Positions 559 to 58,577 of a DNA stretch of 64,000 bases are shown one piece after another. The translations under genes and the position numbers were made by a program. The notes under the pieces are model-generated. The model was not told where the DNA came from, ran no database searches, and saw nothing but the letters and a program-made list of their open reading frames with translations. Source of the stretch: Candidatus Baltobacteraceae bacterium (GTDB lineage: Bacteria; Vulcanimicrobiota; Vulcanimicrobiia; Vulcanimicrobiales; Vulcanimicrobiaceae); NCBI GenBank assembly GCA_036489885.1, contig DASXEW010000001.1, forward strand, positions 620,001 through 684,000, written 5' to 3'. Each line of letters opens with the position of its first letter. Position 1 is the stretch's first letter.

Positions 559-2033
559 TGCGCCGCTGGAGTATCGCGCGTAAGCTAGCTCTCGTTTTTG
601 CGCTCGGGCCGCTAGCGATCGTGGCGCTGGCTCTTCTGGGCTACGCGAGTACCCAAAACTTGCTTATCGCAAGAGGGTGGGTGCTGCACACCTACGACGT
701 GCGCTATTCGATCGCATCGATGGAGATACAGGCAACCAAGTCCCTCGCCGATGAGCGCGCGTATCTCCTATCGGGGCGCCAGAGTGTCGCAGAAGCGTAC
801 CTCAATGACGTCGCGGCATTTCACGCATCGCTCGGAACTTTTACGCGTCTTAGTGTGGACAATCCGCGCCAGCAAGAGCGAGCGCGCATGCTGCGCGATA
901 CATTCGATGCAGAGCAACGCGTTCGAGCGCAAGCAATGGCCGTGCGCCGCGCGAAAGGTCTCGCGGGATTACTGAAGACCGTCACACCCGGTCTTGCCAA
1001 CGATCTGAGCGCGCGTGTTCAAAGGACACTGCAGGAGGCCGACGACGAAGAAAACCGGCTGCAAGCTGAACGTGACGTCGACGCGCAAAACGCGACCAAT
1101 TTGACGCTCAACGCGATCGCTTTTGGTGGAGCTGCAGCAATTCTGGTGCTCATCGTCATCGGGTTTATCGCGATTCGTAATCTAAGCGCGCCGATCGAGG
1201 AGGCCATCGCAACACTTTCAGCGGCGACGGCGGAGATCGTCGCCGGGACGACCCAACAGGCAGCTGGCGTGCAAGAGCAGGCCGCAGCCGTTGCGCAGAC
1301 GGTCGCCACCGTCGAAGAAATCACGCAAACCGCAGAACAATCGAACGAGCGCGCCAAAGCAGTCGTTGATTCTTCGCGACGTGCTACCGATGGCGGCGCG
1401 GTCGGGCGGCGTTCGGTCGAGAGCACGATCGTCGTGATGGGCGACATAAAAACGCGCACGGAGTCGATCGCAAAAAGCATCTTGGCGCTCGCCGAACAGG
1501 CGCAGGCGATCGGCGAGATCATCGCGGTCGTCAACGATCTTGCCGAGCAAACAAATATTCTGGCGCTCAATGCTTCGATCGAAGCGACGCGTGCCGGTGA
1601 CCAGGGCAAAGGCTTCAGCGTCGTCGCTGCAGAGATCAAAGCACTCGCCGATCAATCGAAGAAGGCGACCGTACAAGTTCGCCAGATTCTTGCCGAGATT
1701 CAGAAGTCGACGAATGCTGCCGTCATGGCGACGGAACAAGGTACGAAGAGTGTCGACGAAGCGATGCGAATCGTCAACGAAGCCGACGAAGCAATTCGGC
1801 TGCTCGTCGACACGATCGTCGAAGCGGCTCAAGCCTCGACCTCGATCAGCACCTCCGTCGGCCAGCAAGTCGTCGGAATGTCGCAGATCCAGTCGGCGAT
1901 GCGTAACATCGACCAAGCGACGTCGCAGAATCTCGCATCGACGCAACAATCGGAACAAGCTGCCCGAAATCTCGAGGGCATAGGTTCTCGCTTGCGGCTG
2001 CTGCTGCGCGGCGCAAACGGAGTCGCCGGATGA
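558..2033 (+). CDS. Methyl-accepting chemotaxis protein
   Basis: A 491-residue transmembrane chemoreceptor. A membrane segment at about residues 9-30 and a second at 186-207 enclose a roughly 155-residue, mostly helical sensor domain of the four-helix-bundle/CHASE3 type. The cytoplasmic part is a long coiled coil with the MCP signalling tip: [18 protein letters not shown] followed by [18 protein letters not shown]. The tip binds CheA and CheW, whose genes flank it. Many Gln/Glu/Ala positions could be methylation sites, but I cannot assign them. The gene starts in a TAATG overlap with cheW and ends in an ATGA overlap with cheA (2030-2033). The ligand is unknown. Confidence 0.92.
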
Positions 2034-3961
2034 CGACTATCTCGGAGCGCTTGCTGACAACGTTCTTGGGCGAGCTCCAAGAGCGTTTGGGCGCGTTCGA
2101 GCAAGATCTCTTGGCGCTCGAGGGCGTCACGAGCGATGGTGAGCGCCACGAGCTCGTCAACGCTCTTTTCCGGGAAGCGCATAGCTTGAAGGGTGCGGCA
2201 AACGCCGTCGGTCTCGCCGACATTGCCGACGTCTGTCATCGCGCCGAGGACCTCCTCGCGACTTGTCGCGACCAGCCCGCGGCGCTCGACCAGAAATCGG
2301 TCGAGACGCTGTTCGGCGTCGTCGACTCACTTCGTGCACGAGCGGATCGATTGCGCGCTCCGCCTAGCACGCCGGCGCCGGCGCCGGTTGCAGTAACGGG
2401 AACCACGGCCGCGACACCGGTGGTCCCTACTGCACCGGCACCGGTGCCCGTTCACGACACGACCTTGCGGGTCGCGTCGGATAAACTTGATGTGCTCCTG
2501 CAACATACCGGCGAGCTCCTCGTTGCGCTTACAACCGGGGCCGACCGGGCGTTCCTGGAGCGCGCGGCGCGGCGCGTCGACGAGGAAGTCCGCAACATCC
2601 GGATGCTCCCGTTTTCGCTCGCCTGCGAGGGTCTCGAGCGAATCGTACGCGATTGCGCCGCGAGCGAAGGCAAGAAGTGCCGCCTGCACATCGTCGGCGG
2701 CGGGATCGAGCTCGACCGCGCGATTCTCGACGGGCTGCGTGATCCGCTCCAGCATCTCGTGCGCAACGCCATAATCCACGGAATCGAGCCGCCGGCTCAG
2801 CGCGCGGGGGCGGGTAAGGCGGCGGATGGCTCGATCACGGTCTACGCCGCTTTGCACGGCGGCGGCGTGGAAGTGACGGTTTCCGACGACGGCAATGGCC
2901 TCGATCTGGCTGCGATTCGAACGCGTGCGGAAGAACGTGGTTACACGATCAGCGATCTCGACGTCGGAGGCGCGATATTCTTGCCGGGCGTCTCGACTGC
3001 GCGCGGACTCACGAAAGAGGCTGGGCGCGGCGTCGGGATGGATGCCGTTCGTTCATCGATCGACGACCTGCGCGGAACGATAACCGTGCACTCGGACTCC
3101 GGTGCCGGAGCACGTTTCGTGATGATGGTCCCGCTCACGCTTACGACCGTGCGCGCCGTCGTCTTTGAAGTTGCGGGAAACACGCTGGCGATCGAGTCGT
3201 CGGCGGTCGAACGTTTTGTCCGCGTGCGTCCGGAGGAGATCGTATCGGTCGAAGGGCGTCCGCGGATCATCCGCGAGGGCTCTGCAACGTCGCTCGTCGA
3301 TTGCGCAAGCATCTTGCATCTCAACGACGAGATGCGTTCTCCGAACGACGCGCGTTACGTCATTTTTATCAAAGACACGCTGGGGCGCGTTGCGCTGGCA
3401 GTGGACGATCTGATCGAGGAACGCGAAGTCGTCGTTCGTCCGTTCGGACCACGCCTGGGCGGGATACGTAGCGCAATCGGCGCGACGATTCTTGCGGACG
3501 GTTCTACCGCGGTCATTTTGCGAGGCGGCTACATCGTGCAACAGGCCCACGAGCGCGGCCGCTCCTCTGCAAGTGCAAACGGCGAAGCGCGGGCCGGGCG
3601 AAAGCGTGTGTTACTCGTCGAAGATTCGATCACGACTCGAACGCTCGAACGCAGCATTTTGGAAGCCGCGGGTTACGACGTTGCAACGGCTGGCGACGGA
3701 GAAGAAGCGTGGTCGGTGTTGCAAGACGTCCCGGTCGACCTGGTCGTCACCGACGTCGACATGCCGCGTCTGGATGGCTTTGGACTGACGCAGCGGATTC
3801 GCGGCTCGCAACATCTCAGCGATCTTCCCGTGGTTTTGGTTACGGCGCGCGGGACCGATGAAGACAAGCGGCGTGGCGTCGACGCGGGCGCGGATGCTTA
3901 TGTCACCAAAGGCAATTTCGACCAAGGTGCGCTGCTGCAGACGTTGGCGGAGCTCTTATGA
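2030..3961 (+). CDS. cheA: CheA histidine kinase with fused receiver
   Basis: A 643-residue hybrid CheA. An N-terminal Hpt domain carries the phosphorylated His ([12 protein letters not shown], His51). A Pro/Ala-rich linker follows at about residues 115-140. The P3/P4 dimerisation and ATPase part holds the N box ([14 protein letters not shown]) and G boxes ([17 protein letters not shown]). A CheW-like P5 domain and a C-terminal receiver (about 525-643, phospho-acceptor Asp575 in [12 protein letters not shown]) complete it. There is no separate P2 CheY-binding domain, which is common in CheA-REC fusions. It is coupled by ATGA overlaps to the receptor upstream and cheB downstream. It likely passes phosphate to its own receiver, to CheB-like partners or to the downstream hybrid kinase. 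Confidence 0.92.
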
Positions 3962-55684: not shown

Positions 55685-57100
55685 ATGCAAATGGCCGGCG
55701 CTACGATGTTCGACAAGATCTGGGACGCGCATGTGGTCGCAACGCTTGAAGACGGCAGCGATCTCCTCTACATCGACCGTCACATCATGCACGACTTGAC
55801 CTCCTTGAAAGCATTCGCCGATCTGGAGCGATCCGGTCAGAGCTTGCGGCGGCCGGATCTAACGCTCGCTGTGCAGGACCATTTGCTTGCGACCAATGAG
55901 GATCGCAACGATCTCAGCTACGACAAGGGCACGGTCTTCATCCAAGCGCAGCGACGCAATTCAAGGGCGTACGGGGTTGCGTTGCTCGATATCAACGATG
56001 CCGAGCAAGGAATCATCCACGTCGTCGGCCCCGAGCTTGGCGTAACCTTACCTGGGCTTACGCTCGCGTGTGGCGACAGCCATACATGTACGAACGGCGG
56101 TCTCGGTGCACTGGCATTCGGCCTCGGTACGAGCGACGTTACGCACGTGCTGGCGACACAAACGCTCCCGATGAAGCGTCCTGAGCCGATTCGTGTAACC
56201 GTCGAAGGCCGGATGGGGCCTGGGTTATACGCCAAGGACATGATCCTCTATATCATCAGCCAGGCCGGCTCTGCGGCCGGCAACGGCATGGCGGTAGAAT
56301 ACGCCGGCGCAGCAGTGCGTGCGCTGTCTATCGAGGCACGTTTGACGCTTTGCAATATGTCGATCGAGTGGGGAGCTCGTATTGGGATGGTCGCTCCCGA
56401 CGACGTCACGTATGAATATCTTGCCGATCGGCGCTACGCTCCCAAAGGAAGCGCTTGGGAATCGGCGCTTCAATATTGGCGCACGCTTCCGAGCGACGTC
56501 GACGCTCATTTCGAACGTGAGATTAGCGTCGACGCCACACGCATTGCACCGCAGATCACGTGGGGAACCAATCCCATGGACACCATTGGCGTCGACGAAC
56601 CTGTCCCAAATCCCGAAATGGAGACGAGCTCCGAACGCCGCGAAGCGATGGCGCGCGCGCTCCGTTACACCGATCTGAGACCCGGCACCAGCATGGAAGG
56701 TTTGCCCATCGACGTCGTCTTTATCGGCTCATGCACGAACAGTCGCATCAGCGACTTGCGTGTCGCCGCCGACGTTGCGAAAGGACGCAAGGTAGCTCCA
56801 GGTATCCGTGCGATGGTCGTACCCGGGTCATCGTCCGTCAAGCGACAAGCCGAAGCAGAGGGCTTAGATCGGATCTTTAAAGAGGCGGGCTTCGAGTGGC
56901 ACGCGTCGGCGTGCTCGATGTGCGCGGCGGTTAATGCGGATTTCGTGCCGCCCGGTGCGCGTTGCGTTTCGACTGCAAACCGCAATTATGAAAATCGTCA
57001 AGGCCGAGATTCTCGCACGCATCTGGCGAGCCCCGCGATGGCGGCCGGCGCTGCGGTAAGCGGGAAGATCGTGGACGTCCGAAAGCTTATGCAAAACTGA
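55685..57100 (+). CDS. leuC: 3-isopropylmalate dehydratase large subunit
   Basis: A 471-residue aconitase-superfamily large subunit of the bacterial LeuC type. Cluster cysteines are in GSCTNSRISDL and ACSMCAAVNAD; other signatures are CGDSHTCTNGGLGALAFGLG and LATQTLPMKRP. It would isomerise 2- and 3-isopropylmalate in leucine synthesis with LeuD. Start: ATG 55685, 55691 and 55706 are in frame; 55706 (MFDKIWDAHVV) fits the family best, the first is kept as the longest. No other leucine gene is here; the neighbours (lyase, thiol-disulfide fusion, binding protein) leave room for a catabolic hydratase role. Confidence 0.88.
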   Translation: MQMAGATMFDKIWDAHVVATLEDGSDLLYIDRHIMHDLTSLKAFADLERSGQSLRRPDLTLAVQDHLLATNEDRNDLSYDKGTVFIQAQRRNSRAYGVALLDINDAEQGIIHVVGPELGVTLPGLTLACGDSHTCTNGGLGALAFGLGTSDVTHVLATQTLPMKRPEPIRVTVEGRMGPGLYAKDMILYIISQAGSAAGNGMAVEYAGAAVRALSIEARLTLCNMSIEWGARIGMVAPDDVTYEYLADRRYAPKGSAWESALQYWRTLPSDVDAHFEREISVDATRIAPQITWGTNPMDTIGVDEPVPNPEMETSSERREAMARALRYTDLRPGTSMEGLPIDVVFIGSCTNSRISDLRVAADVAKGRKVAPGIRAMVVPGSSSVKRQAEAEGLDRIFKEAGFEWHASACSMCAAVNADFVPPGARCVSTANRNYENRQGRDSRTHLASPAMAAGAAVSGKIVDVRKLMQN

Positions 57101-57738
57101 TGGAAAAGTTCAAACACATCAGCGGCGTCGCTGTTCCTATGCTGCGCGACAATATCGACACCGACGCGATCATCCCCGTTCCTTTTCTCAAGGACCCGAA
57201 CACGGATTTTGGCGCGCATCTCTTTCATAATCTGCGCTACGACGTCGATGGTCGCGAAATTCCGGCCTTTATCCTAAATCGACGCGAATATCGCAGGGCT
57301 CAAATCGTCGTGGCGCAAAAAAATTTCGGATGTGGAAGCTCACGCGAGCATGCCGTCTGGGCTCTCATGGGATTTGGGATTCGTTGCGTCATTGCTGAGA
57401 GTTTCGGCGACATCTTCTATAACAGTAGCCTGCGCATGGGACTGTTGCCGGTGATCTTGCCTGGCTCGGCTATCAGCGCTGTCGGCGACGCAGTTGAACG
57501 TTCTGCCGGGCGCAATCCGATGCATGTGGATCTTGAAGCTCAGAGGATCACGACCCCTGACGGCGTCGAGTTTCACTTTGAAATTGAACCTATGCGCCGT
57601 CGGATGCTGCTTGAGGGCCTTGACGCCGTTGGCGTAACGCTGCTGCAAGCTGACAAGATCGAAGCGTTCGAAAAGCAGGCCCGTGCCCGGCGGCCATGGA
57701 TGTATGACGTCGGATTCGAGAACGGTACGCCAGTTTGA
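57100..57738 (+). CDS. leuD: 3-isopropylmalate dehydratase small subunit
   Basis: A 212-residue small subunit carrying the aconitase swivel domain. Signatures: NIDTDAIIPVPFLKD and NFGCGSSREHAVWALMGFGI (substrate-binding GSSRE). The length agrees with bacterial LeuD (about 200). ATG overlaps the leuC stop (TGATG). The selenocysteine-candidate gene follows after 11 bases with its own strong ribosome site. Confidence 0.92.
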   Translation: MEKFKHISGVAVPMLRDNIDTDAIIPVPFLKDPNTDFGAHLFHNLRYDVDGREIPAFILNRREYRRAQIVVAQKNFGCGSSREHAVWALMGFGIRCVIAESFGDIFYNSSLRMGLLPVILPGSAISAVGDAVERSAGRNPMHVDLEAQRITTPDGVEFHFEIEPMRRRMLLEGLDAVGVTLLQADKIEAFEKQARARRPWMYDVGFENGTPV

Positions 57739-57749
57739 AAGGAGCCGCC

Positions 57750-58577
57750 GTGGACTCAGTTGTCCTCTTTCATCTTCCTGGTTGAACTACGTGTGTAATC
57801 GTCAAGGAGTTCCTTGGCAAGAACAACGTTCCGTTCGTCGCGATCAACCCGTTGCAGGACGAACAATCGACGCAGCAATGGAAGGACCTCGGCTCCCCAC
57901 TCGTCCCGGCCGTCAAGGTCGGCAGTTACGTCGGCACGATTCTGCACGTTTCGCAGCTGTTCTCGCTGCTTGGACTAGCAATGCCGGCGGAATTCGACGA
58001 GAGACGTTTCGCCTGGGATATTGAGACGATGCTCGAGACGTGGCTAAGGCTCGTGCAGTCATTGAGCTGGGACGCGTTCATCATGCCGACGCCGGCGCGC
58101 AGCCGTTCGACGCGCGACCTGGTCGGAGACGTGTTTGAGAAAATCGCCGAAGGTCCGCGCGCACGGAATGAAGGCGACTATCGGCTAACGATTGACACGG
58201 AGCATATCGCACAACGGTTGCAGTCGACGACTGACGCGGTCCGATATATGGAGGGACATATCGCCGATTGGCAAGCGTTTCTCATGGAGCACTACGACGC
58301 CCAGACGAGTGACGCTGGTCCCGACGTCATGGTTTGGGAGCAAGGATCAGGACGCGACAAAAGCAACGGTAAACCGTGGCCGTTCAGCATCGTCTTGGGT
58401 TTCTTGCGAAACCATACGGCGATGCATTTGAAGCAAGTCACGACGGCATTGGATCGCGCCGGGATCGAGCATCCGAGTGACGGGCTAGATGCTTTTAAGG
58501 GTCTGCATCTCCCAGCGGACGTCTATGGCACTAACGCTGCGGAGATGGGACGGCTAGATCACGTTAGGCTCGTCTAA
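57750..58577 (+). CDS. Probable selenoprotein: UxxC glutaredoxin fused to a DinB-like domain
   Basis: Reading from GTG 57750 gives VDSVVLFHLPG, then TGA (57783-57785, codon 12), then TTCVIVKEFLGKNNVPFVAI. This is a glutaredoxin N-terminus (strand, PG-C-xx-C, VKEFL, later LVPAVKVGSYVG with the cis-Pro), and the TGA falls exactly on the first Cys of CxxC. AAAGGAG lies 5 bases before the GTG, so translation should start upstream of the TGA. The frame then stays open to 58577, about 275 residues in all. Residues 80-275 resemble a DinB/maleylpyruvate-isomerase-type helical bundle (RSTRDLVGDVFEKIAEG; RNHTAMHLKQVTTALDRAGI). A SECIS-like hairpin follows the TGA. A start at TTG 57852 would remove most of the glutaredoxin domain. 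A nonsense mutation is the alternative; the conserved domain on both sides argues against decay. Confidence 0.8.
57801..57818 (+). promoter_or_regulatory. Candidate bacterial SECIS element
   Basis: GTCAAGG pairs with CCTTGGC (7 base pairs, one G-U) around the loop AGTT. The loop starts 22 bases after the TGA, inside the 16-37 base window I recall for bacterial SECIS elements, and has a G among its first two bases, as SelB recognition usually requires. A further ACGT/ACGT pairing at 57789-57792 and 57826-57829 could form a lower stem. Confidence 0.6.

Follow-up and report, generated by a model that had tools for sequence, protein, structure and literature searches.

A probable selenoprotein joining a glutaredoxin to a DinB-like domain in a Candidatus Baltobacteraceae genome, with relatives mostly in Proteobacteria

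The window analysed here, a stretch of 64,000 nucleotides from a Candidatus Baltobacteraceae bacterium, carries a gene with an in-frame UGA which, as sequence comparisons strongly support, encodes a selenoprotein: a glutaredoxin (Grx) with selenocysteine (Sec) in its UxxC motif, followed by a DinB-like helical domain. We consider it likely, at a probability of roughly 0.7, that Sec is inserted with the help of a hairpin SECIS and that the Sec-Grx acts together with a DinB domain holding a putative metal site as an enzyme that conjugates or de-conjugates its substrates. The gene belongs to a family with at least 64 complete members containing Sec.

Reading frame and selenocysteine machinery

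The frame that starts at GTG 57750 runs through TGA 57783-57785 and stays open to the TAA at 58575-58577 (Table 1). The Shine-Dalgarno sequence, the 5-base spacer, the GTG, the TGA and the downstream open frame all lie where the original prediction had placed them, except that the GTG, described there as preceding eleven sense codons, is itself the first of the eleven codons ahead of the TGA. The residues on both sides of the TGA form one glutaredoxin domain, as proposed (PF00462, E 9e-8, residues 4-58, above the gathering score), with both the [CU]xxC and the conserved proline of this family. The UxxC reading with Sec also stands, although the term 'resolving-pair Cys' was loose, as Sec occupies the N-terminal, attacking position.

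Table 1. Features of the gene and its upstream neighbours, in window positions
Feature	Positions	Strand	Remarks
LeuC-like aconitase-family large subunit	55685..57100	+	Upstream, same direction; PF00330, TIGR00170 above cut-off
LeuD-like small subunit	57100..57738	+	PF00694, TIGR00171 above cut-off
Shine-Dalgarno AAAGGAG	57738..57744	+	5 bases ahead of GTG; read from the sequence
Sec-glutaredoxin-DinB gene	57750..58577	+	275 aa, with UGA as Sec (U12)
Glutaredoxin domain	57759..57923	+	Residues 4-58; PGUTTC; Pro53 in VPAVKVG; PF00462
In-frame UGA, first position of UxxC	57783..57785	+	UGA also in paralogue and listed loci
Putative SECIS hairpin GUCAAGG-AGUU-CCUUGGC	57801..57818	+	Synonymous-shuffle test; codon constraint in homologues
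DinB/S-transferase-like helical domain	57999..58574	+	Putative metal ligands D127, H222, H226

The genome of the window (G000; 3.48 Mb, 96% complete) encodes selA, selB, selD and tRNA-Sec, the set for which the original prediction had asked. The selB match scores 291.5 bits, over the curated cut-off, with selA directly upstream (TIGR00474, E 6.6e-147), and the tRNA-Sec, about 23 kb away, scores 74.8 bits, the gathering score being 47. In selD (contig L019, 1501-2436, +) there is an in-frame UGA at the catalytic-loop codon (SGUASK), and the SelD encoded there is thus itself Sec-containing. Since selB was found in 77 of the 99 genomes of the taxonomic family, the Sec trait is no peculiarity of this genome.

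A second Sec-Grx-DinB copy lies on another contig of the same genome (L018:1489-2241, +). It is about 26-28% identical to the window protein, with which it shares the position of the UGA. The gene starts at a GTG that overlaps the stop codon of a PLP aminotransferase gene (TAGTG), and this copy is nearer the main body of the Sec-Grx-DinB family than the window copy. In 12 homologues, the Sec position is occupied by Cys (TGY). With the paralogue as tblastn query, plasmid-borne Grx-DinB fusions that align to 98% of its length were detected in Caballeronia, Variovorax, Roseomonas and Rhizobium, and Cys occupies the Sec position in all six that were read (PGCSSC or TGCSSC). The homologue comparison thus came out as anticipated, with UGA or Cys as the aligned residue and homology on both sides of the UGA. 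Neither of the two observations named beforehand as contrary to a selenoprotein was encountered, namely a genome without Sec machinery together with homologues lacking Cys at this position, or resequencing that gives a Cys codon.

It is highly improbable that the TGA is a sequencing error or a nonsense mutation in a decayed gene, with only the downstream ORF being made. The window copy is highly divergent and a mechanical ORF caller begins at TTG 57852, both of which would fit such an artefact, but the same UGA recurs in the paralogue on a separate contig and in 80 independent loci among the matches listed, which contradicts error or mutation. Moreover, the Shine-Dalgarno sequence serves a start just eleven codons before the UGA, and the genome encodes the machinery to read it.

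Family distribution and the putative SECIS

We defined the family by the motif PGU[ST][ST]CxxxKEF together with a DinB domain, and a DNA pattern for this motif was run on 84,980 genomes, for which about two chance matches were estimated from the bit count. At least 120 stretches matched. Among the matches listed there are 80 loci, 64 of them with a complete Sec-Grx-DinB frame (at least 230 residues counted from the motif, and a start codon that could be identified, in many cases behind a Shine-Dalgarno sequence), so that at least 64 complete members exist; most of the non-complete loci end at contig edges. The window protein fits the definition, with PGUTTCVIVKEF and a leave-one-out full-length E of 6.1e-23.

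The hosts among the matches listed are mostly Proteobacteria (Burkholderiales, other betaproteobacteria, Reyranella, Acetobacteraceae, and other alpha- and gammaproteobacteria), along with Binatota, Myxococcota and Chloroflexota; they were taken from record titles, in which MAG labels such as 'Chitinophaga' and 'Bordetella parapertussis' are untrustworthy. In the order of one Burkholderiales genome, the family was present in 28 of 300 genomes, and the 43 near-full matches in this set comprised 37 with one TGA and six with none. Up to four copies occur per genome (G331). A Rokubacteria contig (L050, 741-947, +) encodes a stand-alone Sec-glutaredoxin that lacks the DinB domain, has a similar hairpin and reaches from its PGUTSC motif over 68 residues to a TAG.

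Genomes with the Sec form also tend to encode selB: it was over the cut-off in 41 of 47 Sec-carrying genomes among the matches listed (many of them MAGs) versus 2 of 14 controls, and in all 15 further Sec genomes versus three of six Cys-only genomes. In the tree, a minimum of four changes is needed to explain the Sec and Cys rows, which makes repeated switching of the residue probable. The original call of a probable selenoprotein is therefore borne out by the Sec machinery, the UGA of the paralogue, the Cys homologues and the co-occurrence of at least 64 complete Sec homologues with selB.

The hairpin predicted 15 bases past the TGA was recovered. With synonymous codons shuffled and the peptide kept, it folds at -9.8 kcal/mol against a mean of -2.3 (z -3.5, p 0.017), the segment being stabler than 98% of the shuffles; in the paralogue, the same test was significant in the tightest segment only. 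Codon choice over the hairpin is under strong constraint in the 71 Sec homologues compared, much more so than in the remainder of each gene: at the equivalent positions Phe is TTT in 63 of 71 (89%) versus 20% elsewhere in these genes, Leu is CTT in 43 versus 8%, and Ser is TCG in 68 versus 38%. The stability signal is weaker in the 12 Cys homologues (mean z -0.4 vs -1.5). The variant CAAGGAGTTCCTTGG, with a four-base loop, is common to the window and to loci L117 and L120, and the pairing register of the window hairpin is one base off the common type. Given this shifted register, a misoriented L056 and L117 lying one base off, we claim no covariation from consensus folding. In alphaproteobacterial loci such as L105 and L114, the post-UGA fold is unlike the betaproteobacterial type, with two hairpins at about +15 and +34, and the SECIS of the family may thus come in two forms.

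Domain structure, genomic context and possible function

The DinB part of the window protein is below the Pfam threshold, yet a leave-one-out profile of 37 relatives finds it with an E of 5.5e-6, against 0.33 for the best of 200 shuffles. The AlphaFold2 model (pLDDT 82.9, pTM 0.81) matches Bacillus subtilis YfiT/BstA (1rxq, E 6.5e-4) in its DinB half and the glutaredoxin-like BC3987 (3zit, E 8.5e-4) in its Grx half; it also matches the mycothiol-dependent maleylpyruvate isomerase 2nsf, and the full-length match to glutathione S-transferases (GSTs) is weak (TM 0.3). Glutaredoxin was detected in all 38 family members and DinB_2 in 32, which, with the 1rxq match and the leave-one-out profile, places a four-helix DinB fold in the window protein. 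DinB-family transferases are metal-dependent, with three His ligands (PMC5815605), and in the mycothiol S-transferase (MST) of Mycobacterium tuberculosis the metal is held by two His and one Asp (PMC10950700). By alignment, the family has H-H-H at window positions 127, 222 and 226 (without exception at 222 and 226, and in at least 90% at 127), and the window protein has D-H-H (D127, H222, H226), a putative metal site.

Upstream, the stop codon of the LeuD-like gene overlaps the Shine-Dalgarno sequence of the Sec gene. Genes for an IlvD-like dehydratase, an MFS transporter, a cyclase, an amidase, a PrpB-like lyase and an NMT1-like binding protein are also nearby. Recurrent neighbours in the loci listed are TctC-like binding proteins (18), MnmA (11), CoA-transferase (8), GST (8), SelA (8), SelB (7), thioredoxin reductase (4) and a UGSC-like protein (4), most of these names having been assigned by reading the sequences. 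The family is found in two kinds of setting, sel operons and catabolic clusters. In betaproteobacteria (L058, L071, L109, L116 and others), the Sec-Grx-DinB gene can directly precede selA-selB; in many cases it has mnmA upstream, and a thioredoxin reductase gene further along. Adjoining the gene in L109, the protein encoded at 2029-3423 (-) weakly matches the end of the UGSC (seleno)protein family and is possibly part of a longer UGA-split gene.

We propose that the UGA would be read as Sec through the SECIS by the genome's own SelA, SelB, SelD and tRNA-Sec, giving an NrdH/Grx-type UxxC domain fused to a DinB (S-transferase-like, STL) four-helix domain with its putative metal site. This arrangement would amount to the GST layout, an N-terminal thioredoxin fold plus a helical domain, built from a different helical part. 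The DinB metal may bind and activate a low-molecular-weight thiol, which would attack an electrophilic metabolite or be taken off an adduct; the Sec of the Grx could then exchange with the resulting mixed (seleno)disulfide or thioether, with the nearby Cys resolving it. One polypeptide might in this way conjugate and reductively de-conjugate substrates in the catabolic clusters of many hosts. The GST, CoA-transferase and TctC-like genes among the common neighbours count in favour of this proposal, while the position beside selA-selB in several betaproteobacteria, outside any catabolic cluster, counts against it. No gshB (TIGR01380) or bshC family match was found in the window's genome. The wider view, a large unrecognised GST-like family in which a Sec-glutaredoxin and a metal-dependent DinB thiol transferase bring a selenol and a metal-activated thiol to one and the same substrate, serving catabolic pathways in many proteobacteria and in several further phyla, is tentative, and we hold it at somewhat less than even odds.

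The sel-operon setting would suit a simple Sec-glutaredoxin serving disulfide reduction or the selenium pathway (as antioxidant or in selenium delivery), with DinB only docking or binding a thiol. In seven to eight of the loci listed, selA and selB follow immediately downstream of the gene; mnmA is found upstream in 11 loci and thioredoxin reductase in four, and in the window copy conservation is highest in the Grx part. This explanation is nevertheless unlikely, as the putative metal ligands are conserved in the family, and the multiple copies per genome with CoA-transferase, transporter and amidase neighbours suggest substrate-specific use.

Less probable still is a thiol-dependent cis-trans isomerase resembling maleylpyruvate isomerase, with the selenol as built-in nucleophile in a small-acid pathway. 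It would agree with the match of the DinB fold to 2nsf, with the LeuC/LeuD-like, IlvD-like, PrpB-like, amidase and cyclase neighbours in the window, and with the Cys homologue in Roseomonas, which lies among isochorismatase-family, amidase and Asp/Glu racemase-family genes; 2nsf, however, is not the best structural match, and homologues sit in many other contexts. The idea of a small-acid pathway, raised in the original prediction, would be compatible with the neighbouring genes.

For the conjugating enzyme that we favour, the activity of the window copy itself may have changed, considering its very long branch (7.4 changes per column, with unsure tree placement) and its loss of conserved family residues. 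An exact-peptide-pattern scan of contigs with the window protein alone found no relatives, as this copy is too divergent, and a search of 97 relatives with it returned only the paralogue in its own genome. No other family member was found in the 149 genomes searched in its phylum; Grx matches there, where readable, were stand-alone Cys glutaredoxins whose single TGA was their own stop. This absence, together with the divergence, suggests that the window copy was acquired from outside its phylum.

Relation to known systems

Genes with Sec UGA codons are usually annotated as cut short or missed, so many hosts of the Sec-Grx-DinB family probably carry wrong annotations of it. The prokaryotic selenoproteome would gain a sizeable family, whose genes often lie beside selA-selB and which is possibly one reason for the retention of the Sec trait in many soil and freshwater proteobacteria. 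In addition, selenocysteine would here be joined to a metal-dependent thiol-transferase fold, with closely related Cys enzymes allowing direct comparison.

The Sec form of the fusion appears to be unrecorded as a selenoprotein family. A 2026 review of 119 prokaryotic selenoprotein families and subfamilies includes stand-alone Grx and UXX-star and not the DinB fusion (PMC13188914), and a full-text literature search for selenocysteine or selenoprotein with DinB returned nothing relevant, within an incomplete coverage that an unindexed description could escape. The fusion as such had been thought new, which does not hold, as Caballeronia, Variovorax, Roseomonas and Rhizobium have its Cys form, already annotated under 'glutaredoxin domain-containing protein' or 'DinB family protein'. 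These Cys fusions (WP_244817409.1, WP_162571355.1, WP_207446294.1; 33-37% identical to the paralogue over 98% of its length) share the two-domain layout but have Cys (TGY) for Sec and, in the 12 sequences, a weaker hairpin signal.

Stand-alone Sec-glutaredoxins (PF00462, PMC13188914) likewise have Sec first in the UxxC of a Grx fold, but are single domains of about 84 aa, whereas the window protein has DinB fused behind the Grx; its best PDB sequence matches are the single-domain glutaredoxins 7c10 and 7c12. UXX-star (NF041212) and the HUGP/GUXX-star fusion (NF045501) are also glutaredoxin-like selenoproteins, some of them fused, though to a different partner domain, and the window protein scores 16.9 bits with UXX-star against a cut-off of 66. 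Members of the DinB/YfiT superfamily (BstA-H, mycothiol S-transferase, maleylpyruvate isomerase) have a four-helix fold and metal ligands like those proposed here, the D-H-H of the window protein resembling M. tuberculosis MST as described in PMC10950700, but the cited sources report no Grx domain or Sec in them, and their own thiol cofactors are bacillithiol or mycothiol. GSTs share the N-terminal thioredoxin fold followed by a helical domain, as the weak full-length structural match reflects, but they have a C-terminal domain of their own, in place of which the window protein carries a DinB domain with putative metal ligands.
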